From an uncultured Alistipes sp. (GTDB lineage: Bacteria; Bacteroidota; Bacteroidia; Bacteroidales; Rikenellaceae): a DNA stretch of 12,382 bases. The number at the start of each line of letters is the position of its first letter. The first letter of the stretch is position 1. Below the pieces are notes generated by a model that made no database searches, was not told the DNA's origin, and was given only the letters and a program-made list of their open reading frames with translations. Shown here piece after piece: positions 1 to 12,382 of this stretch. The stretch covers positions 1-12,382 of the forward strand of contig CAKVKI010000056.1 in assembly GCA_934754975.1 (NCBI GenBank). Reading direction: 5' to 3'. The translations under genes and the position numbers were made by a program.

Positions 1-1443
1 GGCGTGGCCGACGACGTGCTGTGCCCCGGACGGGAGAAGACTTTCGAATTCCTCGAAGGCGTATTGACCGAAGTGATGGAGCTGTTCCCCTCGGAGTACA
101 TCCACATCGGCGGCGACGAGTGCCCGAAGGTGCGCTGGGAGAAGTGTCCGCGCTGTCAGGCGAAGATCCGCCAGCTCGGCCTGAAAAGCGACGGCGAACA
201 TACCGCCGAACATTACCTGCAGAGTTACGTGACCGACCGCATCGGCAAATTCCTTGCGCAGCACGGCCGCCGCATCATCGGCTGGGACGAGATACTGGAA
301 GGCAAGGCGCCCTCCGACGCGGTCATCATGTCGTGGCGCGGCAGCGAGGGCGGAATCACCGCGGCCAAGCTGGGGCACGACGTTATCATGACGCCTAATT
401 CGCACTTCTATTTCGACTACTACCAGTCGCTCGACACCGACGCCGAGCCGTTCGGAATCGGCGGTTACATACCGATGGAGCAGGTTTATTCGTACGATCC
501 GGCCTTCCCGGAGCTGACGCCCGAACAGCAGAAACATATTCTCGGCGTGCAGGCCAACCTCTGGACCGAATACATCTTGACCGACAAACACCTCGAATAC
601 ATGCTCCTGCCGCGTCTGGCCGCCCTGAGCGAGGTGCAGTGGTGTCGGCCCGAGGTGAAGGACTGGAACCGTTTTATCGGCAGTTTCAGGATGGACAAAA
701 TCTATTCGCAGATGGGATATGAGTTCGCCAAACATATCTTCGGGGTTACGGCTTCGTATGCGGTCGATCCGGAGAAGGGAGGCGTCGTGATGACCCTCAC
801 CACGCAGGGCGGCGCTCCGATTCATTACACGCTCGACGGCTCCGATCCTACGGCTTCGAGCCCGCTTTACAAGGCGCCGGTAACGATCGGCGAAAGCTGC
901 ACGTTCAAGGCCGCGGCCCTGCGCGAAGGCATGCAGACGCCGGTTTACTCGCGCAAATTCGATTTCAACAAGGCGACCGGACGGCGCATCGCGCTGAACG
1001 CCGCGCCGACGCTTAAATATACCTACGGCGGCGCTTCGCTGCTGGTGGACGGCTACCACGGCGGCCCTGTTTATTCGAACGGGGCGTGGATCGGGTTCCT
1101 GAACGAGCCGCTGGACGTTACGATCGACATGCAGGGGGCGAAGCCCTATTCGGCGGTGACCGTCGAATCGCTGGTCGAGAAGGGCGAGTGGGTTTTCCCG
1201 CCTTCGTCGGTGGGGGTATACCTCTCGGACGACGGCAAGGAGTTCACCGAAGCGGCGCTGATGCCCGTGCCGCAGCAGACGGCCGACAGCCCCGACGGCA
1301 TCAAGCCCTTCAAGGTACTCTTCCCCGAGACTTCGGCCCGCTACCTGCGCGTTGTGGCCCGTACGGTCGATCCGATTCCGGCATGGCACGGCGCGGCCGG
1401 GCAGAAGGCGCATATGTTCGTGGATGAAATCGTCGTAGAGTAA
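1..1443 (+). CDS. GH20 beta-N-acetylhexosaminidase, 5'-truncated by the window edge
   Basis: Frame 1 is open from the first base to TAA at 1441-1443 (480 residues), so the true start lies to the left. GH20 enzymes remove terminal beta-linked GlcNAc or GalNAc by substrate-assisted catalysis. The diagnostic motif is visible: IHIGGDECP, with the Asp-Glu catalytic pair at fragment residues 39-40 (bases 115-120). Other typical GH20 active-site signatures follow: GWDEILEG (Trp95), a SWRG segment (Trp112), a Tyr-rich FYFDYY segment near residue 140, and NLWTEYI (Trp188). After the barrel (ending near residue 240) comes a chitobiase C-terminal-like beta domain with a TLDGSDPT motif near residues 275-283, then an F5/8 type C-like carbohydrate-binding domain from about 335 to the end. 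The missing part would be the signal peptide, the N-terminal chitobiase-like domain and the first barrel strands. It lies just upstream of the sigma gene on the same strand, and I see no terminator between them. Substrate linkage is not predictable from sequence. Family assignment is secure. Confidence 0.93.
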   Translation, partial: GVADDVLCPGREKTFEFLEGVLTEVMELFPSEYIHIGGDECPKVRWEKCPRCQAKIRQLGLKSDGEHTAEHYLQSYVTDRIGKFLAQHGRRIIGWDEILEGKAPSDAVIMSWRGSEGGITAAKLGHDVIMTPNSHFYFDYYQSLDTDAEPFGIGGYIPMEQVYSYDPAFPELTPEQQKHILGVQANLWTEYILTDKHLEYMLLPRLAALSEVQWCRPEVKDWNRFIGSFRMDKIYSQMGYEFAKHIFGVTASYAVDPEKGGVVMTLTTQGGAPIHYTLDGSDPTASSPLYKAPVTIGESCTFKAAALREGMQTPVYSRKFDFNKATGRRIALNAAPTLKYTYGGASLLVDGYHGGPVYSNGAWIGFLNEPLDVTIDMQGAKPYSAVTVESLVEKGEWVFPPSSVGVYLSDDGKEFTEAALMPVPQQTADSPDGIKPFKVLFPETSARYLRVVARTVDPIPAWHGAAGQKAHMFVDEIVVE

Positions 1444-1502
1444 AACCGGGAGTGGACGTGGAGAAAACCGCCGTGCGAATACAGGGTGCCGAATCCGTTG
1501 CG

Positions 1503-2069
1503 ATGACAACGGCCGAATTCGGCCGCCTGTTCGCCACATGGCGCACGCGGTTCGAAGCGATCGCGTGCCGCTATGTGCGGAGCGCGGCGGTGGCCGAGGA
1601 TCTCGTCTCGGACAGTTTCATGTCCTTCTGGGAGAACCGCGGACGGATTCCCGCCGATGCCAATCTGCAGGCTTACATCCTGATTATCGTGCGCAACAAA
1701 TGTCTCGACTGGCTGCGCGCCCAGAGCCTGCATACGAAGATCGAACAGGAGGTTTATGAACTTCGCCGGCGGGTTATGGCGGCCGATATCCGTTCACTGC
1801 AGGCGTTCAATCCCGAGGAAATTTTCTCGGAAGAGGTGGCCGCGATCGTGCGGCAGTCGCTCGACCGCCTGCCCGAACTGACACGCGATGTTTTCATCGC
1901 CCGGCGGTTCGAAGAGATGAGTTACAAGGAGATCGCCGAAAAGTACGGCATCACCGTGCGGCGTGTCGAATTCGAGCTGGAAAAGGCTGTGAAGCAGCTT
2001 CGCGTGGCATTGAAGGATTATTTGCCCGTATTGCTTATGTTGTTGTCGGATACTGTTTTACGATCTTGA
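1503..2069 (+). CDS. ECF-type RNA polymerase sigma-70 factor (PUL regulator)
   Basis: With the ATG at 1503 the protein has 188 residues, normal for Bacteroidota ECF sigma factors. Region 2 lies in about residues 5-45, with a VAEDLVSDSFMSFWENR segment typical of -10 recognition helices. Region 4 starts near residue 123 (LPELTRDVF) and contains the helix-turn-helix EEMSYKEIAEKYGITVRRVE. There is no region 3 and no anti-sigma domain. The tail is short and hydrophobic (LPVLLMLL). An in-frame GTG at 1452, 8 bp after the GH20 stop, would add 17 residues unlike the family, so I prefer the ATG, although no strong Shine-Dalgarno decides it. The next gene is a FecR-like anti-sigma factor and the one after is a SusC with an STN domain. 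That is the classic trans-envelope module in which substrate uptake releases the sigma factor to activate the PUL. Target specificity is inferred from this context. Confidence 0.93.
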   Translation: MTTAEFGRLFATWRTRFEAIACRYVRSAAVAEDLVSDSFMSFWENRGRIPADANLQAYILIIVRNKCLDWLRAQSLHTKIEQEVYELRRRVMAADIRSLQAFNPEEIFSEEVAAIVRQSLDRLPELTRDVFIARRFEEMSYKEIAEKYGITVRRVEFELEKAVKQLRVALKDYLPVLLMLLSDTVLRS

Positions 2070-2175: not shown

Positions 2176-3129
2176 ATGAATCCGGAACTTTTATATAAAT
2201 ATTTGGAAAATACGACGACCGATGCCGAGACGGAGCAGGTACTCGACTGGCTCGACGCCGATCCTGCGCACCTGCGCGAATTGGACGAGCTGGACAAAGT
2301 GATGGCCGCTTCGGTCATTTACGGTCCCGACGTGCTGTCGCCGGCGCCCGTGAAGAAGCCGGGACGCCGCGTTCCGCTGCGGCGCATCGTGCGTTATGCC
2401 GCGGAACTGGCCGCCGTGGTGGCCGTCGGTCTCGGCGTCGCCCGGATGCTTGCCGAAAACCGCATCGAAGAGTGGACGCGGCAGACGACGACGCTCGAAG
2501 TGCCTTCGGGGCAGTACCTGAGCATGAAACTGCAGGACGGCACGACGGTATGGCTCAATTCGGGGACCCGGCTGGAGTATCCGCTGGTGTTCGCCGGGGG
2601 TGAGCGGCGCGTGAAGGTCACGGGCGAGGCGATGTTCGACGTCGAGTACGATCCTGCACATCCGTTCGTGGTCGAGACGTTCGCCTGCGACGTCGAGGTG
2701 CTGGGAACCAAATTCGACGTGACGGCCGAAGAGAGCGAGGGATTTTTCTCGGCGGCCCTGCTGCGCGGAAGCGTGAAGGTGACCAACCGCCTGACGCCCG
2801 GCGAGCAGTTCGTCCTCAAGCCCAACGAAGAGGTGCGGCTGGCGGGGCGGCGGCTGAGCCTGAATGCGATCGGCAGCATGGACGACTATCTCTGGACCGA
2901 AGGCATGATCAGCATCAAGGGACTTTCGTTCGCAGAGCTGATGCGCAAATTCGAAAAGAGCTTCGGCGTGAAGATCCAGATCGACCGCAGCCGCATGCCG
3001 GTGGTCAATTACAACCACGGCAAGATCCGTATTTCGGACGGCGTCGATTCGGCGCTGCGCCTGCTGCAGATGGCCTCGGATTTCACCTATACGCGCAGTG
3101 AAGACAACGGAACGATCGTCATACGATAA
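2176..3129 (+). CDS. FecR-like anti-sigma factor (inner-membrane, DUF4974 C-terminus)
   Basis: A 317-residue protein with the order normal for Bacteroidota FecR proteins. A cytoplasmic helical part (about 1-70) would bind the sigma factor. A single transmembrane segment at about 74-93 is rich in Ala, Val, Leu and Gly. A periplasmic FecR domain spans about 107-203, with the recognisable sequence LEVPSGQYLSMKLQDGTTVWLNSGT and later EAMFDVEYDPAHPFVVET and VEVLGTKFDV. A C-terminal DUF4974 domain covers about 244-317 (ISIKGLSFAELMRKFEKSF, ending GTIVIR) and is expected to contact the STN domain of SusC. The start follows a purine-rich AGAGAAAG. It would hold the sigma factor inactive until SusC engages its glycan. 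All domains look intact. The partner assignment rests on gene order. Confidence 0.94.
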   Translation: MNPELLYKYLENTTTDAETEQVLDWLDADPAHLRELDELDKVMAASVIYGPDVLSPAPVKKPGRRVPLRRIVRYAAELAAVVAVGLGVARMLAENRIEEWTRQTTTLEVPSGQYLSMKLQDGTTVWLNSGTRLEYPLVFAGGERRVKVTGEAMFDVEYDPAHPFVVETFACDVEVLGTKFDVTAEESEGFFSAALLRGSVKVTNRLTPGEQFVLKPNEEVRLAGRRLSLNAIGSMDDYLWTEGMISIKGLSFAELMRKFEKSFGVKIQIDRSRMPVVNYNHGKIRISDGVDSALRLLQMASDFTYTRSEDNGTIVIR

Positions 3130-3188
3130 CCGATACCTGCATTATAAACCTGAAAACAAAATCTGAAAAACTGCCTATGAGAAGAACC

Positions 3189-3212
3189 GAACAATGATCC
3201 TTTCAGGTCGTC
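3189..3212 (+). promoter_or_regulatory. Candidate ECF-sigma promoter for the susC operon
   Basis: GAAC at 3189-3192 is followed after exactly 16 bp by CGTC at 3209-3212. This matches the general ECF promoter form of an AAC-type -35 and a CGTC-type -10 at 16-17 bp spacing. Transcription would begin near 3218-3222, giving a leader of about 95 nt before the susC ATG. The predicted antisense RNA covers almost exactly that leader. The motif is short and was found by eye, so chance is possible. An overlapping GAACC at 3184 would be at the wrong spacing. Confidence 0.35.
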
Positions 3213-3221
3213 CGGGGAGAT

Positions 3222-3256
3222 AAAAAAGCTTGCAGATGGTCGCAACATCCGCAAGC
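3222..3256 (-). terminator. Intrinsic terminator reading on the minus strand inside the susC leader
   Basis: Read on the minus strand this is an 11 bp stem, GCTTGCGGATG with CATCTGCAAGC, with one G-U pair and a 7 nt loop (TTGCGAC), followed directly by TTTTTT (plus-strand 3222-3227). On the plus strand the same stem has an A-C mismatch and no T tract, so it is a minus-strand terminator and not one for the anti-sigma gene. No protein-coding gene nearby is on the minus strand, which points to a non-coding antisense transcript. Confidence 0.8.
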
Positions 3257-3302
3257 CGCGGTCGATCGTTAATCAGCTACCCAGCCTACTAACAACTAAC
3301 CA
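3222..3302 (-). ncRNA. Predicted cis-antisense small RNA opposite the susC leader (DonS-like class)
   Basis: The minus strand of the susC leader holds a complete small transcription unit of about 80 nt. It has a canonical Bacteroides-type promoter (3338 to 3307), a 5' stem-loop (3293-3284 with 3277-3268, loop 3283-3278) and a terminator stem-loop (3256-3246 with 3238-3228), then six U. Both stems favour the minus strand: positions that are G-U wobbles in minus-strand RNA become A-C mismatches in plus-strand RNA (for example 3250/3234). The start site near 3302 is estimated from the promoter. Cis-encoded antisense RNAs opposite susC leaders are known repressors of Bacteroides PULs (DonS of the B. 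fragilis Don N-glycan locus is the model). By analogy this RNA would pair with the susC leader and lower expression of susC and downstream genes. The structure is seen in the sequence; expression and function are inferred. Confidence 0.72.
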
Positions 3303-3306
3303 ATTG

Positions 3307-3338
3307 CAAAAGTATGAACAAAAAACGTATTCAGCAAA
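3307..3338 (-). promoter_or_regulatory. Bacteroides-type housekeeping promoter (-33/-7) for the antisense RNA
   Basis: On the minus strand TTTG (3338-3335) is followed after 20 bp by TACTTTTG (3314-3307). This matches the TTTG / TAnnTTTG consensus of the Bacteroidota primary sigma factor, with normal spacing. The -7 box overlaps the A of the susC ATG, and the -33 box lies inside the first codons of susC. It therefore drives transcription away from susC into its own leader. No other plausible role was seen for it. Confidence 0.7.
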
Positions 3339-6300
3339 TTAAATGCCTGTTTACACTCTTTTTTGTCGTGTGCGCATCGTTCTATGCCACACGGTCATAC
3401 GCCCAGAATACCTCGGTGACGATCCGTCTGTCGGGCGTCAGCATGGAGCGTGTGATGAATGAAATCGAGAACCAAACCAATTATTTGTTCCTGTCGAACA
3501 AGGACGTGGACATCAACAGCGTCGTGAGCGTCGATGTCGAGGCGCGCCCGCTTTCGGAGGCGCTGGCCCAGATGGTGCAGGGAACCGACGTGGTCTACCG
3601 CTTCGACGGCAAATACATCCTGCTTTCGAAGGCCGACCGCAAGCCCGTGACCGTGAAGGGCGTCGTGACCGACGCCGACGGCGCGCCGGTGATCGGAGCT
3701 TCGGTGATCGTCAAAGGCACGACGGTCGGCGTTTCGACCAACACCGACGGTTCTTTTTCGCTGCAAGTTCCCCCCCCCTCGGAAAATGCGGTCCTGACCG
3801 TTACTTACCTGGGGTATGAGCCGGTCGATGTGACCGTCGGCAGCCGCACCGATTTCCGGATTACGCTCCGCGATTCGGCCGTGGCCGTGGAGAATGTCGT
3901 GGTGACGGCCCTCGGCATCAAACGCCAGGAGAAGGCCCTGAGCTACAACGTGCAGCAGGTCAAGTCCGAGGAGCTGACGACCGTCAAGGACGCCAACTTC
4001 ATGAATTCGCTGGTCGGCAAGGTGGCCGGCGTGCAGATCAACAGCGGTGCGAGCGGTCCCGGCGCCAGTGCGCGCGTGGTGATGCGCGGCGAGAAGTCGA
4101 TCGAGAAGGGCAACAACGTCCTCTATGTGATTGACGGTATTCCGATGTACAACCACAGCTTCGGCGGCGACGGCGGCACCTATGCCAAGCAGGCCGGTTC
4201 GGAGAGCGCCGCGGATATCAACCCCGAGGACATCGAGTCGATCAACATGCTGACCGGTCCTTCGGCTGCGGCCCTTTACGGCAGCGACGCCGCGAACGGC
4301 GTGGTGGTCATCAACACCAAGCGCGGCGTGAAAGACCGCACGGTAGTGACCGTCAGCAACAGCACGACCTTTTCGAAGGTCTACCAGCTGCCCGACATGC
4401 AAAACAGCTACGGCACCAGCTCGGGGCTGATGAACTGGGGCGGGAAGTATTCCAGCACGTTCGACGCCAGGAAGTTCTTCAACACGGGAACCAACATCAT
4501 CAATTCGGTGTCGGTATCGACGGGCAACGAGAAGAACCAGACCTATATTTCGGCTTCGACGACCAATACGGCGGGCATTATTCCCGAAAACACGTACGAC
4601 CGTTACAACTTCACGGCCCGCAATACCACCTCGTTCGCCAAGGACAAACTCGTGCTGGACCTGGGCGCCAGCTTTATCATCCAGCACGACGAAAATATGG
4701 TGACGCAGGGCAAGTATTACAATCCGCTGCCTGCGCTCTACCTTTTCCCGCGCAGCGACGATTTCGACGAAATCCGCCTTTTCGAACGCTGGGATCCCGT
4801 ACGCGGCTATATGGTGCAGTACTGGCCTTACGGCGAGGGCGCGCATTCGCTGCAGAATCCCTATTGGATTCAGAACCGCATGAACCGCGAGACGAGCAAG
4901 CGCCGTTACATGCTCAACGCATCGCTGCGGTGGAACATCACCGACTGGATGAATGTTTCGGGCCGCGTGCGGGTCGATAATTCGGAATACCGCATCAAGC
5001 AGAAACTCTATGCTTCGACGCTGACCACGTTCTGCGGAACGAACGGCGGCTACGAGGACCAGACGCAGCACGACCGCAGTTTCTACGGCGACGTGATGCT
5101 CAACATCGACAAGACTTTCGGCGACGACTGGTCGCTCGTCGCCAACATCGGCGCTTCGATCAACGACCAGCGCTACGAGCAGGCCGGCGTGGCGGGCGAC
5201 CTGCTGCTGACCAACCATTTCGCCATGAACAACCTCAATTACCAGGAGAAGTTCAAACCCCTGCAGGAGGGCTGGCACGACCAGACGCAGGCGATCTTCG
5301 CCTCGGTCGAAGTGGGATGGCGCTCGATGCTCTACCTGACCGTGACGGGCCGCAACGACTGGGCTTCGCAGCTGGCCTATTCCAAGAACTCGTCGTTCTT
5401 CTATCCCTCGGTGGGTCTCTCGGCCGTGGTTTCCAACATGGTGACCATGCCCGAATGGTTCACGTTCCTCAAGGTGCGCGGATCGTACTCGAAGGTGGCT
5501 TCGGCTTTCGCCCGCTACCTCTCCAATCCGGCTTACTCGTTCAACAACCAGACGCACAACTGGAGCAAACCTTCGACCTATCCGGCCTACAACCTCAAGC
5601 CCGAGGATACCAAATCGTGGGAAATCGGTCTGAACGCCCGTTTCCTCAACCACATCAATCTCGACGTGACCTACTACCGTTCGAACACCTACCACCAGAC
5701 GATTTACGCGCCGCTGCCCTCTTCGTCGGGTTACAACGAGGTGGTCGTGCAGGCCGGCGACGTACAGAACCAGGGCGTCGAGCTGGCGCTGGGCTACAAC
5801 AACAAGTGGAACGATTTCACCTGGAGCAGTTCGTACACCTTTACGCTCAACCGCAATAAAATCAAACGGCTGGCCGAAGGTGAAGTGAACCCCGTGACGG
5901 GCGAGACCATCACCGACAACGAGATTCAGAAAGACTGGCTCGGCGCGAGCAACGTCGCTCCGCAGGTTATCCTGCGTCCGGGCGGTTCGATGAGCGACAT
6001 TTACGTCAATCACGAGCTTAAGCGCGACCTGAACGGCAATATTGAGGTCGATCCTTCGACGGGCAACCTCGCGATCGCCGAAACCGACTTCCGCAAGGTG
6101 GGCCAGCTCTCGCCCCGCTACACGATGGGCTGGAGCAACAGCTTCGGTTATAAGGGAATCGAACTCGGGGCGGTCCTTACGGCCCGAATCGGCGGCCTGA
6201 CCTACTCGGCCACACAGGGCGTACTGGACTATTACGGCGCGTCGCAGACCACGGCCGATGCGCGCGACCGCGGCGGCATTCCGATCAACTACGGCACCAT

Positions 6301-6610
6301 CGATCCCCAGAAGTACTATTCGGCGATTTCAACGGCCGAAGGCGGTTACGGAGCCTACTACCTCTACAGCGCAACCAACGTCCGGCTGCAGGAGCTGAGC
6401 CTGCAGTATACGCTGCCGGCCCAATGGTTCCGCCACAAAGCCAAACTGACGGTCGGATTCGTCGCCAAGAATCTCTGGATGATCTACTGCAAGGCGCCGT
6501 TCGATCCCGAAATTTCGGCTGCGACGGACAATGCCTACTACCAGGGCGTGGACTACTTCATGCAGCCGAGTACGCGGAATTTCGGCTTTAACGTGAAACT
6601 GCAATTCTAA
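3314..6610 (+). CDS. SusC/RagA-family TonB-dependent outer-membrane transporter with STN domain
   Basis: The 1098-residue protein imports oligosaccharides across the outer membrane together with SusD. A signal peptide ends near residue 30 (ATRSYAQ). An STN domain (about 32-108) is the part that signals to the FecR-type anti-sigma factor. A carboxypeptidase-regulatory-like domain (about 112-186) begins VTVKGVVTDADGAPVIGASV. A TonB-box-like stretch with VENVVVTALG lies near 192-201. The plug domain (about 205-340) carries VLYVIDGIPM and AAALYGSDAANGVVVINTKRG. The rest is the 22-strand type beta-barrel, ending in the aromatic FGFNVKLQF, typical for outer-membrane insertion. The susD gene starts 13 bp after the stop, so the two are translationally close. 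The start codon overlaps an antisense promoter. A run of nine C at 3770-3778 encodes Pro153-155 and is a possible slippage site. The STN domain fits with the adjacent sigma/anti-sigma genes. Confidence 0.97.
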   Translation: MNKKRIQQIKCLFTLFFVVCASFYATRSYAQNTSVTIRLSGVSMERVMNEIENQTNYLFLSNKDVDINSVVSVDVEARPLSEALAQMVQGTDVVYRFDGKYILLSKADRKPVTVKGVVTDADGAPVIGASVIVKGTTVGVSTNTDGSFSLQVPPPSENAVLTVTYLGYEPVDVTVGSRTDFRITLRDSAVAVENVVVTALGIKRQEKALSYNVQQVKSEELTTVKDANFMNSLVGKVAGVQINSGASGPGASARVVMRGEKSIEKGNNVLYVIDGIPMYNHSFGGDGGTYAKQAGSESAADINPEDIESINMLTGPSAAALYGSDAANGVVVINTKRGVKDRTVVTVSNSTTFSKVYQLPDMQNSYGTSSGLMNWGGKYSSTFDARKFFNTGTNIINSVSVSTGNEKNQTYISASTTNTAGIIPENTYDRYNFTARNTTSFAKDKLVLDLGASFIIQHDENMVTQGKYYNPLPALYLFPRSDDFDEIRLFERWDPVRGYMVQYWPYGEGAHSLQNPYWIQNRMNRETSKRRYMLNASLRWNITDWMNVSGRVRVDNSEYRIKQKLYASTLTTFCGTNGGYEDQTQHDRSFYGDVMLNIDKTFGDDWSLVANIGASINDQRYEQAGVAGDLLLTNHFAMNNLNYQEKFKPLQEGWHDQTQAIFASVEVGWRSMLYLTVTGRNDWASQLAYSKNSSFFYPSVGLSAVVSNMVTMPEWFTFLKVRGSYSKVASAFARYLSNPAYSFNNQTHNWSKPSTYPAYNLKPEDTKSWEIGLNARFLNHINLDVTYYRSNTYHQTIYAPLPSSSGYNEVVVQAGDVQNQGVELALGYNNKWNDFTWSSSYTFTLNRNKIKRLAEGEVNPVTGETITDNEIQKDWLGASNVAPQVILRPGGSMSDIYVNHELKRDLNGNIEVDPSTGNLAIAETDFRKVGQLSPRYTMGWSNSFGYKGIELGAVLTARIGGLTYSATQGVLDYYGASQTTADARDRGGIPINYGTIDPQKYYSAISTAEGGYGAYYLYSATNVRLQELSLQYTLPAQWFRHKAKLTVGFVAKNLWMIYCKAPFDPEISAATDNAYYQGVDYFMQPSTRNFGFNVKLQF
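3770..3778 (+). repeat. C9 homopolymer within the susC coding sequence
   Basis: Nine consecutive C encode Pro153-Pro155 in the carboxypeptidase-regulatory-like domain. Loss of one C leads to TGA within seven codons (reading ATG CGG TCC TGA). Gain of one C leads to TGA about fourteen codons on. Either event would stop the receptor before its plug and barrel, so the tract could act as an on/off switch. It could also be an ordinary repeat or a sequencing-sensitive site. Confidence 0.85.
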
Positions 6611-6623
6611 CCGAACCAAAACT

Positions 6624-8150
6624 ATGAAAAATATCATTAAACTTACCTGTTTGTTATTGACGGTATGCGGTTTTGCGGGTTGTACGGGCAATTTCGACGA
6701 ATACAATACCGATCCGTATGCCCTTTATAAGGGAGACCCCGCCGTGCTGATTCCCACCATGCTCGACGCGATGATGTACGTGCAGCAGAACGACTCGCAG
6801 ATGGTCGATCAGATGGTCGGCTCGCTGGGCGGATATTTCACGCTGTCGAACCGCTGGGGCGGACAGAATTTCGATACGTTCAATGCGTCGGACGCCTGGA
6901 ACGCCACGCCGTACAACACGATGTTCGAGGATATTTACGCCAACTTCTTCGATATCGAGAAATCGACCAGCAAGTCGGGACATTACTACGCGATGGCCCG
7001 CCTGGTGCGCGCCGCCGTGATGATGCGCGTCGCCGACTGCTACGGCCCGATTCCCTACGGCAAGGTTGCCGACGGCTCGTTCTATGTCGAGTACGACTCG
7101 GCGGAAGAGGTTTATAAAAACATCATCGAAGACCTTTCGGGCGCGGCGACCACGCTCTATGCCTATGCGCAGGAGTATCCGGCGTCGAAGCCCCTGGCCA
7201 GCAACGACCCGATTTTCGGCGGCGATTATACCGCCTGGGCGCGTTTGGCCAACTCGCTCTGCCTGCGTGCGGCGATCCGCTCGAACGACCGGGAGGCCGC
7301 CGAGAGCGCCTGCGGCCATGCCGCCGGCCTGATCGAGACCAACGCCCAGAACGCCATGATGAATCCCGGCGTACAGGGCAATCCCTATCAGCTGGCTTCG
7401 GCTTCGTGGGGCGACCTGCGGGTCAATGCTTCGATCGTCGATTACATGACCGGATACGACGACCCCCGCTGCGAAGCCTACTTCCAGAAATCGACCTTCG
7501 ACAACAGCCGCTATATCGGCATGCGCGCCGGTACGGCCGGGTTCGAGAAGTCCGCGGTAAGCGGTTATTCGCTGCCCAACGTGCAGTCCGGCTCCTCGCT
7601 GCCGATTTTCGTGGCTGCCGAGACCAACTTCCTGCGCGCCGAGATGGCATTGAAGGAGTGGACCGTCGGCGGTACGGCGCAGTCCTACTACGAAGCCGGC
7701 GTGCGCCTGTCGATGGAGCAGAACGGCGTGGCGGGCGAGGATATCGACGCTTATCTGGCCGACGAAACGCTTACGCCCGCCGGACATCTGAACGATCCGC
7801 GCGGCGCGAAATACAATTACGACCGTCAGACGGACGTGAAGATCAAGTGGAACGATGCGGACGGCACGGAGAAGAATCTGGAACGTATCATCACCCAGAA
7901 ATGGATCGCCAACTTCCCGATGGGTCTCGAAGCCTGGGCCGAATTCCGCCGCACGGGGTATCCCGAACTGGCGCCGGCCATCGACAACCTCAGCGGCGGC
8001 GTTATCTCCGACAACTTCCGCGGCCTGCGCCGGCTGCGCTATCCCTATACCGAGCGTAACCTCAACAAGAGCAATTACGACAAGGCGGTGGCATTGCTGG
8101 GCGGCACGGACAACGAGTCGGTCGACCTTTTCTGGACCAAGAAAAAATAA
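6624..8150 (+). CDS. SusD/RagB-family surface glycan-binding lipoprotein
   Basis: A 508-residue lipoprotein that caps the SusC channel and binds the glycan at the cell surface. The signal peptide ends in the lipobox FAGC with the lipidated Cys at residue 20, followed by acidic residues (TGNFDEYNTD) like a Bacteroidota surface-export signal. The N-terminal NFDEYNTDP and the C-terminal segment FPMGLEAWAEFRRTGYPEL (residues about 431-449) are hallmarks of the SusD-like family, with helical TPR-type sequence between (AMARLVRAAVMMRVADCYGPIPYG). Its length is typical and the frame is intact. It starts 13 bp after susC, ends 28 bp before the GH18 gene, and clearly belongs to the same operon. Binding residues cannot be named from sequence alone. 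Confidence 0.96.
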   Translation: MKNIIKLTCLLLTVCGFAGCTGNFDEYNTDPYALYKGDPAVLIPTMLDAMMYVQQNDSQMVDQMVGSLGGYFTLSNRWGGQNFDTFNASDAWNATPYNTMFEDIYANFFDIEKSTSKSGHYYAMARLVRAAVMMRVADCYGPIPYGKVADGSFYVEYDSAEEVYKNIIEDLSGAATTLYAYAQEYPASKPLASNDPIFGGDYTAWARLANSLCLRAAIRSNDREAAESACGHAAGLIETNAQNAMMNPGVQGNPYQLASASWGDLRVNASIVDYMTGYDDPRCEAYFQKSTFDNSRYIGMRAGTAGFEKSAVSGYSLPNVQSGSSLPIFVAAETNFLRAEMALKEWTVGGTAQSYYEAGVRLSMEQNGVAGEDIDAYLADETLTPAGHLNDPRGAKYNYDRQTDVKIKWNDADGTEKNLERIITQKWIANFPMGLEAWAEFRRTGYPELAPAIDNLSGGVISDNFRGLRRLRYPYTERNLNKSNYDKAVALLGGTDNESVDLFWTKKK

Positions 8151-8178: not shown

Positions 8179-9351
8179 ATGAACATAAAGAAAAATATAT
8201 GGGCATTGGCGGCGGCGCTGCTTTTCGCGACTGCGTTTACCAACTGCAGCGACTGGACGGAGGTCGAAGCCGAAAAGAAGGTCGATTACGGCAATACCGA
8301 GACTGCGCGCCCCGAATCCTATTACCAGGCTTTGCGCGAGTGGAAAAAGACGGATCATTCGATTTCGTTCGGGTGGTTCAGCGACTGGGGAGATCCTGCT
8401 GTTTCGACGGCCAATATGCTGGCGGGGCTTCCCGACAGTATGGACATGGTCTCGTTGTGGGGGGCGTGGTCGAATCTTCCGGAAGGAAAGAAGGCCGACC
8501 TGAAGTACGTGCAGGAGAAGAAAGGAACCAAGGTCGTATTCTGCAGTTTTACCGAGTATGTGGGCCAGGGCTTCACCCCTGAAGAGTACAATACTGACGA
8601 AGAGACCCGGAACGCCTTCTGGGGCTGGGTAGAAGTTCAGAAGTTGGATGAGGAGGGTAATCCGGTGTTCGACAAACAAGGCAATCCCGTCATGGTGCCT
8701 GAGGAGGGAGCCATGAAAGCATCGTTGAAAAAATATGCCCACGCTATTCTCGACACGATGTACAAATACAACTACGACGGATTCGATATCGACTTCGAGC
8801 CGAATTACGGCGGTGCAGGTCCTTTGTCCAGTTACAATGATCGTATGCACATCCTGATCGAAGAGTTGGGCAAATATATCGGCCCGATGTCGCCCAATCC
8901 TGAAAAGTTGTTGCTTGTAGACGGTGAACCGCAGACGCTGAATGCCGAATCGGGGCCTTATATCAGCTATTTCGTGATTCAGGCTTATGCGGGAACTTCG
9001 GGAAATCCGGCCAATTGGACGAATTCTTTTTCGAATCTGGATAGCCGTTTGCGGCTCGGAATCAATAAATTCGGTGAGTTGCTGGGTGAAGAGACGGTGA
9101 CCAACCGGTATGTAATGACCGAGAACCTCGAACCGGCCCTCGAAGCCCTGCAGGGCGGATACCGGTTTTATGACCGTTCCAACGTCCTGATGGACTATCC
9201 GTCGCTGGTCGGGATGGCCCGCTGGCAGCCGCTCAACGGCTTCCGCAAAGGAGGGTTCGGCGCTTACCGCTTCAGCAATGAAGGAATAAACAAACCTTCT
9301 TACAAATGGATGCGCACCGGAATTCAGGCGCAGAATCCCGCAGTAAATTAG
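8179..9351 (+). CDS. GH18 lipoprotein, probable endo-beta-N-acetylglucosaminidase
   Basis: A 390-residue lipoprotein with lipobox AFTNC (Cys23). The GH18 catalytic signature DGFDIDFE lies at residues 200-207, with Glu207 as the acid and Asp205 as the supporting residue, so the site looks complete. Further typical barrel segments are SISFGWFSDWG (about 61-71), KVVFCSFTEY and YFVIQAYAGTSG. GH18 members in SusCD loci with this architecture (endo F / EndoBT-like) cut the GlcNAc-beta-1,4-GlcNAc core of N-glycans. A chitinase-like role is less likely, since there is no chitin-binding module and the operon holds a DUF1735-like protein typical of N-glycan PULs. Compared with BT_3987-type enzymes it lacks an N-terminal DUF1735-like domain; such a domain is in the next gene. 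A small insert at about 155-177 contains a near repeat, EGNPV and QGNPV. G+C in the middle of the gene is near 50%, below susC. High-mannose versus complex-type preference is unknown. Confidence 0.9.
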   Translation: MNIKKNIWALAAALLFATAFTNCSDWTEVEAEKKVDYGNTETARPESYYQALREWKKTDHSISFGWFSDWGDPAVSTANMLAGLPDSMDMVSLWGAWSNLPEGKKADLKYVQEKKGTKVVFCSFTEYVGQGFTPEEYNTDEETRNAFWGWVEVQKLDEEGNPVFDKQGNPVMVPEEGAMKASLKKYAHAILDTMYKYNYDGFDIDFEPNYGGAGPLSSYNDRMHILIEELGKYIGPMSPNPEKLLLVDGEPQTLNAESGPYISYFVIQAYAGTSGNPANWTNSFSNLDSRLRLGINKFGELLGEETVTNRYVMTENLEPALEALQGGYRFYDRSNVLMDYPSLVGMARWQPLNGFRKGGFGAYRFSNEGINKPSYKWMRTGIQAQNPAVN

Positions 9352-9379: not shown

Positions 9380-10561
9380 ATGAAAAACAGCATTAAAACA
9401 GCGGCTCTCGGTTTGGTCGCACTCGTTTCGGGATTCACCGCCTGCAACGATGCCGATTACGATACGCTCGGAATACACGCCTTTGTCAGCGAGAGCGCGG
9501 CGAATAAAAGTACGAAAGTGACCATTACCGAACTGGGCGCCGACGCTGAGATTACGGCCTGCCTGAGCGAGGCCGCATCGAAAGATGTAAAATTGAAATT
9601 CGTGGTCGATCCCGAGGTGCTGGACCAGTATAACAAGAAGCAGGCTTCGAGTTTTATGGTGCTTCCCGAGGATGTTTATGAATTCGATCCCGAAGTGATA
9701 ATCAAAGCCGGCGATTACAGCGCTTCGACGACCAAAATCCATATCAAACCGCTGCCCAAGGAGTATGTCGGCGAGAGCTATGCCCTGCCGCTGCGCCTTG
9801 TCAGCGCCGACGGATCGGTTCCGGTGACTTCGGTAACCTCGTCCTATGTAATTACCACCGAAGCGATCGTAGTATCCTCGCTTCCGATGTTTGCCGGCGG
9901 TGCCGGTCTCGCAGCCGACGGCTTCCCCGTGACGCTTCCGCAGTTTACGGTTGAGGCCCGTTTCCAACTAAGTAATACGGCTAACCGCAACCGTGCTGTT
10001 TTTACGAACGGCGGTTCGGTGCTGCTGCGTTTCGAAGATCCGCAGAACGACACTTCGGACCACAAGGCACATTCGCTGGTGCAGTTCCAGGGCGATGGTT
10101 GGTACCTTAATCCGTCGCTTTCGTTTACACCGAACAAATGGCAGCATCTGGCGCTGACCTATGACGGAACCAAAGTGATCCTTTATGTCAACGGTACTTT
10201 TGCCGGGAGTAAAGAGGGTGTGTGCGATCCGAATTTCGGATCAGCCAACTGGTTCGGCGGCAATGCCGGCGGCGGGCACGGAACCGGCGATGAATGGTGG
10301 GATACGCCTGTCTTGTGCAACATATTGTGTGCCGAGATGCGTATCTGGTCAGTGTGCCGTACGGAAGCTCAGGTACAGAACAATATGACGACGACCAGTG
10401 CGAAATCGCAGGGGTTGGTTGCTTATTGGCGCATGAATGAGGGAGAAGGCAATACGTTCGAGGACTGTACGGGCAACGGACATACGCTGAAAACGTCCAA
10501 AACCCCGACGTGGGTTCCCGGCATTAAGTCTACCGATACGGAGACTGCATGGCCGGAGTGA
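9380..10561 (+). CDS. Surface glycan-binding lipoprotein with DUF1735-like and LamG domains
   Basis: A 393-residue lipoprotein with lipobox GFTAC (Cys22) followed by acidic residues. Residues about 25-165 resemble DUF1735, the N-terminal beta-sandwich common in proteins of N-glycan PULs; visible segments are KLKFVVDPEVLDQYNKK and YALPLRLVSADG. Residues about 185-375 form a concanavalin A-like LamG domain (Laminin_G_3 type), with FTVEARFQLS, NKWQHLALTYDGTKVILYVNGT, AEMRIWSVCRTEAQVQNNM and GLVAYWRMNEGEGNTFEDCTGNGH. No catalytic motif is seen. The layout is like the B. theta protein encoded beside BT_3987, so a role as a cell-surface glycan-binding protein that presents N-glycans to the GH18 enzyme is likely. 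It begins 28 bp after the GH18 stop, so it is co-transcribed. The sequence does not show which sugar it binds. Confidence 0.86.
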   Translation: MKNSIKTAALGLVALVSGFTACNDADYDTLGIHAFVSESAANKSTKVTITELGADAEITACLSEAASKDVKLKFVVDPEVLDQYNKKQASSFMVLPEDVYEFDPEVIIKAGDYSASTTKIHIKPLPKEYVGESYALPLRLVSADGSVPVTSVTSSYVITTEAIVVSSLPMFAGGAGLAADGFPVTLPQFTVEARFQLSNTANRNRAVFTNGGSVLLRFEDPQNDTSDHKAHSLVQFQGDGWYLNPSLSFTPNKWQHLALTYDGTKVILYVNGTFAGSKEGVCDPNFGSANWFGGNAGGGHGTGDEWWDTPVLCNILCAEMRIWSVCRTEAQVQNNMTTTSAKSQGLVAYWRMNEGEGNTFEDCTGNGHTLKTSKTPTWVPGIKSTDTETAWPE

Positions 10562-11774: not shown

Positions 11775-12382
11775 TTAATGGAAAATTCCTTGTATGTTAA
11801 TGTTGATAACTTCGTTAACCGCTCCGGAATTATATTTTTTTGCACCTTGTATCTGAATTCTATATTTTCCGGGAATAAGGGAAAATATTTGTGATGTCGG
11901 ATTCGGATTTTCTTCGTCGAATATAGGGAAAGGAACATATTCGGCTCCGTACCATATGTCTATAAACGGTTCAGATGTAATGCCGCCATATAAGTGTTCT
12001 GTTTCACTCCATACATCGAGCCATACACCTATAGGCATTGAAGCTGTTATTATTTCAATATTTCCTCTCTGAGTAATTTCCAATTCTATGAAAACATCAT
12101 TTCCGCATCCTCGTAACCGATCTACATCCCGGAAATATTCCCTGCGAGTATCAATTGCCAGAATTTCGGTGAAATCGCCGTCATAGGGGCCGAGTTTTAG
12201 TACATCATCTCCCGCATTGGTTCCCTGCCGGGGATCTTCCAGATAGGCGCAGTTGACAATGGTGCATTCGTTTGAATAGGCTGGGCCGAACGGAGTCGAT
12301 ATAGATGCCCGGTATTTTGTGATACGCTGTTCGGGTATCGGCAGGCGAATGTGTTTTTCATCGGAGCCGAATGGTGTCCAAA
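11775..12382 (-). CDS. Unrecognised protein, C-terminal part; start lies beyond the right edge
   Basis: The minus-strand frame ends at TAA (11777-11775) and stays open to the window edge, giving at least 202 residues. The piece starting at TTG 12083 is not the whole gene, because the same frame continues upstream with no stop and with plausible protein sequence (for example TPFGSDEKHIRLP and YRASISTPFGPAYSNEC). I do not recognise a family. The fragment has many aromatic and beta-forming residues and segments such as MPIGVWLDVWSE and FIDIWYGAEYVPFP; the last part, SLIPGKYRIQIQGAKKYNSG, looks like a beta-sandwich end. No transmembrane segment or catalytic signature is visible. By hand count G+C in its 3' part is about 35%, far below the PUL, so it may have a different history. 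It is convergent with the PUL and separated from it by the operon terminator. I see no clear terminator of its own in the 100 bp gap. Confidence 0.65.
   Translation of the reverse strand, partial: WTPFGSDEKHIRLPIPEQRITKYRASISTPFGPAYSNECTIVNCAYLEDPRQGTNAGDDVLKLGPYDGDFTEILAIDTRREYFRDVDRLRGCGNDVFIELEITQRGNIEIITASMPIGVWLDVWSETEHLYGGITSEPFIDIWYGAEYVPFPIFDEENPNPTSQIFSLIPGKYRIQIQGAKKYNSGAVNEVININIQGIFH

Follow-up and report, generated by a model that had tools for sequence, protein, structure and literature searches.

The susC locus and the minus-strand element

The window, i.e. the whole stretch of 12,382 nucleotides that was analysed, contains a PUL in which a susC homologue follows genes for a sigma factor and an anti-sigma factor (Table 1). 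A protein of the F5/8 type is also encoded. Because a GH18 of the BT1044-like/EndoS-like kind is present, the PUL is, as judged from its gene content with the additional GH20 gene, of the N-glycan type, i.e. predicted to be directed at host (mucosal) glycans. At the end of the window, an open minus-strand ORF (11775-12380, 201 aa) faces the PUL and gave only a weak match to Y_Y_Y (E 0.026). The best 19 of 120 listed relatives of the SusC protein were full-length and 97-98% identical. The nearest genome locus compared was that of Alistipes sp. AH.B8_2 (G002), with a FecR protein 90% identical and DNA 96% identical to the window across the leader and the first 1 kb of susC. The initial annotation had proposed a sigma/anti-sigma setting and an Alistipes-like affinity for this locus; the ECF sigma and FecR genes 5' of susC bear out the former and the kinship with AH.B8_2 the latter.

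Table 1. Positions of genes and predicted elements in the window
Feature	Position	Strand	Remarks
GH20 hexosaminidase	1-1443	+	Directly 5' of sigma gene; truncated at window edge; fits N-glycan use
ECF-type sigma factor	1452..2069	+	Sigma-70 regions 2 and 4; domain assignment
FecR-type anti-sigma factor	2176..3129	+	Domain assignment
GCCTATGA motif, candidate -10 region of sigma-driven susC promoter	3173..3180	+	Suggested by conservation and position
Predicted antisense RNA, ~81 nt	3222..3302	-	Probable start from box, end from T tract
Terminator stem-loop, 12 pairs	3227..3257	-	Followed by six T (3227-3222, first T paired); fold and terminator scan
Stem-loop 1	3260..3301	-	Own fold and family-level pairing tests
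-7 box TACTTTTG (consensus TANNTTTG)	3307..3314	-	Overlaps susC start codon; plus strand reads CAAAAGTATG
-33 box TTTG	3335..3338	-	Within susC codons 8-9 (CAA ATT)
susC homologue with STN domain, presumed antisense target	3314..6610	+	Domain assignment
SusD-like lipoprotein	6624..8150	+	Domain assignment
GH18, BT1044-like/EndoS-like	8179..9351	+	Marks N-glycan-type PUL
BT_3987-like N-terminal domain and laminin-G-type protein	9380..10561	+	Domain assignment

Opposite the leader of this STN-type susC gene, the minus strand reads TTTG, 20 nt and TACTTTTG. Both boxes match exactly the sequence TTTG / TANNTTTG, which is given as the promoter of the Bacteroidetes primary sigma factor in the accessible text of PMC7366714. 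Although boxes and spacing are the same as in primary-sigma promoters, the promoter of the window points away from the gene, its -7 box overlapping the start codon and its -33 box falling within the coding sequence. The first base of the -7 box lies opposite the A of the susC ATG (3314) and complements it, and the second complements the preceding T.

The unit claimed initially, complete with promoter, two stem-loops and a terminator with six T, could be read directly on the minus strand. The 82 nt from 3302 to 3221 folded into two stem-loops at -35.5 kcal/mol, compared with -21.7 kcal/mol (sd 3.2) in shuffles (z -4.4), and all of the 27 antisense bodies chosen for alignment folded into exactly two top-level helices. 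Terminator-like sites were not enriched window-wide (9 sites against a shuffle mean of 14.5); among the nine, the site at 3257-3222 ranked first in both stem pairs (12) and G-C pairs (6). The initial annotation had noted no minus-strand gene nearby; the minus-strand ORFs listed there overlie fecR and susC. Rfam 15 at gathering score gave no match to the antisense unit, either in the window or at 12 further loci; three sub-threshold matches in the window all lay outside the leader and belonged to animal lncRNA families. Since promoter, two-hairpin fold and terminator recur 5' of many related genes in Bacteroidales, the minus-strand element is very probably genuine, a regulator of a general kind already known, and not a product of chance.

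The predicted antisense promoter at susC start codons

In 61 genomes of the genus of AH.B8_2, the promoter pattern with CA before the -7 box, TTTGN{17,19}CATANNTTTG, occurred 464 times, compared with 36 occurrences of the reversed control. The pattern also catches ordinary promoters and was used solely as evidence for the promoter consensus; this excess indicates that TTTG-N19-21-TANNTTTG is in real use as a promoter in this genus. At Alistipes-type loci, many of them chosen by the covariance model R1 described below and not by promoter, CAAANNTATG was found at 45/56 susC starts, compared with 1/98 other ORF starts. The start-codon box was present in 31/80 STN susC genes and in 0/26 non-STN genes. 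It was accompanied by CAAA, the sense reading of the -33 box, at a spacing of 19-21 nt in 23 of the 31 genes, the chance expectation being 0.2 as calculated from the frequency of CAAA elsewhere in the same gene starts. The -33 box is encoded in susC codons 7-9 in two reading frames, either as CAA-A.. (Gln) at spacing 20 or as ..C-AAA (Tyr/Ile/Asn/Cys, then Lys) at spacing 19, and its retention via differing residues in two frames appears hard to explain by protein constraint.

The frequency of the unit was determined in susC leaders. Of 115 starts placed across the window and 118 loci, 106 leaders (80 STN, 26 non-STN) were kept; those dropped were identical leaders, starts with only a short stretch upstream and one stray site. 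A strict unit, consisting of TTTG-N19-21-TANNTTTG and a hairpin terminator 50-140 nt further on, was present in 18/80 STN leaders and in 0/26 non-STN leaders, and none was obtained in 20 rounds of dinucleotide shuffles. The relaxed unit, comprising box and terminator without the TTTG requirement, was present in 35/80 STN and 2/26 non-STN leaders (shuffles: mean 0.2/80, max 1, and mean 0.25/26, max 2, respectively) and absent from 45/80 STN leaders. Because the leader was part of the DNA query by which some of the other loci were obtained, those found by protein alone (L001-L080, among the matches listed) were also counted apart, giving 8/58 STN and 0/20 non-STN leaders with a strict unit and 22/58 and 2/20, respectively, with a relaxed one.

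Within the AH.B8_2 genome, box and terminator were found in 6/15 FecR-linked regions and a seventh region had an imperfect box; in one of the 15 no SusC was found. Regions L201, L204-L207, L209 and L210 of this genome are FecR-linked and have a SusC match, but lack the combination of box and terminator at the assigned start. For finding FecR homologues, a cut-off of E 1e-90 proved too strict, returning 1/180 genomes.

In this phylum, translation starts are commonly flanked by A-rich stretches, which read T-rich on the other strand. By chance, an A-rich translation start of this kind might mimic an opposite-strand promoter beside an unrelated hairpin. The near absence of CAAANNTATG from other ORF starts, the lack of strict units in the shuffles and the clustering of R1 matches at susC starts all speak against such an origin, the probability of which is negligible.

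Covariance models and pairing of the predicted antisense RNA

Model R1 rests on 14 antisense bodies, promoters excluded, in alignment A3 with the structure given by hand; 6/14 training rows, including the window, were out of register in stem 1. The window, as a member of the training set, scored 70.8 bits. In 180 genomes of the genus of AH.B8_2, with 26 candidates scored per genome and strict filters, 49 matches were obtained in at least 25 genomes, which is a lower bound; the other 155/180 gave no R1 match under these settings. When the window was added to these matches, 45/50 rows lay antisense at a susC start, 42 of them at STN-susC frame starts and three further rows (L176, L168 and L189) at susC-like starts with a frame cut by the contig end or changing. 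The remaining 5/49 matches lay elsewhere and scored at most 28 bits. Several of the rows are near copies of one another; with training rows excluded (matched by place and score), 31/36 rows were at susC starts. The -7 box, although not part of R1, was present in 44/45 susC-start rows, the exception being L163 with TAACTGTG, and 37 of the 44 boxed rows had TTTG at a spacing of 19 or 20 nt. In L189 (G161) and L168 (G155) the antisense unit and the susC-like start are kept while the frame soon changes or ends; these loci are possibly pseudogenes or assembly errors.

R1 was also run on 80 SusC loci (981 kb, E up to 1). All 17 matches were antisense within the susC leader, and 12 of these lay outside the training set, so the search of other PUL leaders proposed in the initial annotation did find the RNA. 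The matches came from records named Prevotella, Bacteroides, Muribaculaceae, Dysgonomonas, Cryptobacteroides, Alistipes and Bacteroidales. No R1 match was found in 63/80 loci, and R1 missed L090, the second-closest relative, though the unit of L090 satisfies the strict definition. A second model, R2, yielded 24 matches in 41 genomes of the genus of a B. finegoldii record and 393 genomes of its order. Twenty of the 24 lay opposite STN-susC leaders or starts, one at a SusC gene with unplaced start and three where no SusC was found; in 15 of the 20 a TANNTTTG box stood near the RNA 5' end. Four of the 24 matches are near copies of L071, an R2 training member. In the order-wide search, with 12 candidates scored per genome, at least 7/393 genomes were positive. 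The B. finegoldii genome itself had no R2 match, although L009 in this genome has a relaxed unit.

Base pairing was investigated in a model-fitted alignment of 45 distinct rows. The sources were the window, 39 genus loci and 12 non-training SusC loci (52 in all, of which 48 matched); the five rows lying elsewhere and L176, L189, L194, L195 and L196 were omitted. All 19 modelled pairs showed changes on both sides. The share of paired cells was 91.7%, compared with 70.2% in shuffled sequences, and fell to 37-43% when the partner was slid by 1-3 bases; it was 82.3% in stem 1 and 96.8% in the terminator. The window row took another register in stem 1, forming 5/7 modelled pairs, and its own fold is longer. 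In a model-independent test, the first six bases of stem 1 complemented the 3' region of their own locus better than those of other loci (4.44 vs 3.64, reached in 9/5000 permutations); this comprised 18 loci, left from 27 after two without the GG anchor and seven close copies had been dropped, and the window itself scored 3.5. The stem 1 helix score was 523, compared with 380 (sd 14) in shuffles. Because RNAalifold alone recovered only the terminator helix and not stem 1, stem 1 as a family-wide feature rests on the helix score, the own-versus-cross test and the pair count. Compensatory changes, for which the initial annotation had suggested an alignment of leaders, were thus observed in both stems. 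A first covariation count was discarded as circular, its arms having been drawn from each sequence's own fold, and MAFFT alignments of the RNA bodies misaligned stem 1.

The initial annotation had further argued from G-U pairs that selection acts on the minus-strand RNA. For stem 1 this argument proved weak: the G-U share of G-U plus A-C was 0.80, compared with 0.725 (sd 0.056) in composition-matched shuffles, 6/100 of which reached it; G and T abound on the minus strand, and composition explains most of the bias. The inner terminator pairs gave 31 G-U against 3 A-C, but in an alignment fitted to the minus strand. The T tract and the promoter are a firmer basis for the minus-strand orientation than G-U pairing. 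These data also bear on whether the conserved element might be a structure of the susC mRNA leader, such as an attenuator or stability element, with the minus-strand features as its mirror image. The plus strand of the 3302-3221 region does fold better than shuffles (-19.9 kcal/mol, z -3.0), and, in addition to the weakness of the G-U bias in stem 1, the sense strand gave 10 weaker mirror matches confined to the terminator hairpin (left out of the 50-row count). A leader structure is nevertheless extremely unlikely, since the T tract and promoter boxes are found on the minus strand only, R1 matched the antisense strand in every one of the 17 leaders, the inner terminator pairs favour G-U and the constraint from the -33 box reaches into codons past the leader.

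Between the window and AH.B8_2, the RNA stretch 3221-3310 showed 3/90 differences and the promoter stretch 3311-3342 showed 0/32, compared with 7/37 in 3169-3205, which includes the GCCTATGA motif, and 19/39 further upstream in 3130-3168; positions 3343-3373 were not used, being an alignment-end artefact. Two differences in stem 1 change U-A to U-G and G-U to G-C, keeping the pairing of the minus-strand RNA. Loss of the boxes and stems in homologous loci had been named initially as evidence against an antisense RNA; close homologues kept both.

Sense-strand motif and proposed mode of action

Upstream of the terminator, the plus strand of the window carries GCCTATGA (3173-3180), an instance of the motif GCC[CT]ATG or GCCATGA. 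This motif was found in 33/80 STN leaders and 1/26 non-STN leaders (shuffles: mean 1.3/80, max 7) and, in protein-found loci among the matches listed, in 17/58 and 1/20, respectively. It stands 127-199 bases 5' of the STN susC start codon, usually after an A-rich stretch. Of the 80 STN leaders, 22 had both motif and relaxed unit, 11 the motif only, 13 the unit only and 34 neither; the two are not strictly coupled. By its position, GCCTATGA is a candidate element of the ECF sigma-driven susC promoter. A -35 partner was looked for in the leaders; the spacing varied and none is claimed. In B. thetaiotaomicron, two ECF sigma factors, including one that controls a susC/D pair, have been proposed to use a different, TGTT-type -10 motif (accessible text of PMC12596196), and the GCCTATGA motif would therefore not be general. 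Literature on GCCTATGA together with Bacteroides gave, by title and abstract among the matches listed, none on such a motif. If GCCTATGA is the sense promoter, the susC leader would be ~125 nt long and hold the whole antisense complement, and antisense transcription would be halted by the terminator short of the sense start.

An ECF sigma/anti-sigma setting is shared by the window and the locus of DonS, an RNA of Bacteroides fragilis. DonS and PUL-associated cis-antisense RNAs were reportedly described by Cao et al. in 2016. As far as the accessible descriptions go, DonS is, like the predicted ~81 nt RNA of the window, a short RNA encoded on the strand opposite the susC homologue in a PUL for N-glycans; the window RNA differs in coming from a different family, in Alistipes relatives. 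It lies opposite the leader and start of its susC homologue, has by sequence its own promoter and intrinsic terminator, belongs by gene content to a PUL for host (mucosal) glycans and, at a predicted 81 nt from the presumed start to the T-tract end, falls within the 78-128 nt of PUL-associated antisense RNAs (accessible text of PMC7366714). Membership in the DonS-like class, as suggested initially, is thus supported by position, predicted length, promoter and terminator, and PUL type, as compared with the description of DonS. Two Bacteroides loci, L014 and L009, served as stand-ins for DonS; both have the gene order sigma, FecR, SusC, SusD, GH18, BT_3987-like, with the unit at the susC start. 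L014 has a box at +12, TTTG at 21 nt and a terminator at -98 (its start codon is less certain), and L009 has a box at +5 without TTTG and a terminator near -130; when R1 was run on six loci, L009 was recovered (E 0.0048) and L014 was not. The window promoter is fused to the start codon, whereas in 10/14 STN-susC matches in the genus of the B. finegoldii record the assigned start codon lies 52-94 nt from the RNA. By analogy, the window RNA most likely works like DonS, repressing susC.

The stretch is very probably a free-standing cis-antisense sRNA gene of ~81 nt, the product of which would pair with the sigma-driven susC leader and repress as DonS does. Sequence comparison shows promoter, fold, terminator, conservation and target geometry; we infer transcription, repression, the translation step and the sense start of the system. 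A sigma factor of the housekeeping type would start the antisense RNA ~8-12 nt 5' of the susC start codon, reading away from susC, and the RNA would fold into its two hairpins and end at its own terminator short of the sense promoter. The susC mRNA presumably begins just 3' of GCCTATGA under control of the neighbouring ECF sigma/FecR pair. With the glycan absent or a better sugar present, the RNA would pair with the leader beside the ribosome landing site; as the antisense 5' end lies within the expected ribosome footprint, pairing would block initiation of translation and form a duplex, which would probably be exposed to cleavage, and leaky sense transcripts would yield no SusC. Strong sigma activation would outnumber the antisense RNA, which would thereby set a threshold for sigma-driven transcription.

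The accessible text of PMC11697453 states that DonS represses its N-glycan PUL by a mechanism described as unknown. PUL antisense RNAs are numerous in model gut Bacteroides, with 32 reported in B. thetaiotaomicron (PMC11697453, PMC10994844, as far as accessible), yet their correlation with the PUL is mixed, and because some of the pairs rise together (PMC10994844), repression would not be general for such RNAs. This positive correlation also fits the idea that the act of antisense transcription matters and not the RNA, either by polymerase collision lowering sense output or by antisense accompanying and stabilising the message, and the two presumed promoters do face each other across ~130 bp. 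We regard this as unlikely, since a covarying stem 1 is kept, needless for transcription alone, and the antisense polymerase would already be halted at the terminator, ~35 nt short of the presumed sense start.

It is very unlikely that the RNA acts in trans on other transcripts in the manner of FopS or GibS, Bacteroides sRNAs acting on PUL or glycoside-hydrolase mRNAs, with its site opposite susC being incidental. Antisense 5' ends of several loci do share GGTAATNAGT-like stretches by eye. Owing to its position, however, each RNA complements its own leader perfectly, one large group has the RNA at a constant place relative to the start codon, and the window had no Rfam match at gathering score, the FopS model RF04319 included. 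FopS consists of a single-stranded 5' seed and one terminator hairpin (accessible text of PMC11697453), whereas the window RNA is predicted to have two stem-loops.

PUL antisense RNAs are already known as a kind, and the predicted cis-antisense RNA of the window adds a member in Alistipes relatives, together with a shared fold, a start-codon promoter and a sense-strand motif of the GCCTATGA type. Literature naming Alistipes contained no report of such an antisense RNA among the matches listed, and family-level evidence of this sort was not found among the matches listed from open-licence literature. The shared fold, the fixed start-codon geometry of one large group and the candidate sense motif would make boxes, stem pairs and loops mutable singly. 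More tentatively, and leaning slightly against it, we consider that an antisense RNA may be a standard part of the Bacteroidales ECF sigma/FecR/STN-SusC cassette, forming one two-hairpin family in which the Alistipes-like branch has its promoter in the susC start and signal-peptide codons, with the GCCTATGA-type motif as the matching sense promoter element of these sigmas. If so, the promoter lies within the susC start and the target could not easily lose its repressor without altering its own start.

Two minor observations were made at other loci. A longer second form of antisense RNA, with GATTTCANATCCGG-like sequence before or at the terminator as seen by eye, could be observed in Bacteroides and relatives (L009, L069, L036, L055, L217 and L225). 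The lone Rfam match among the 12 further loci was FopS (RF04319) at L050:1698-1764 of Bacteroides pyogenes, ~3 kb 5' of a SusC homologue.
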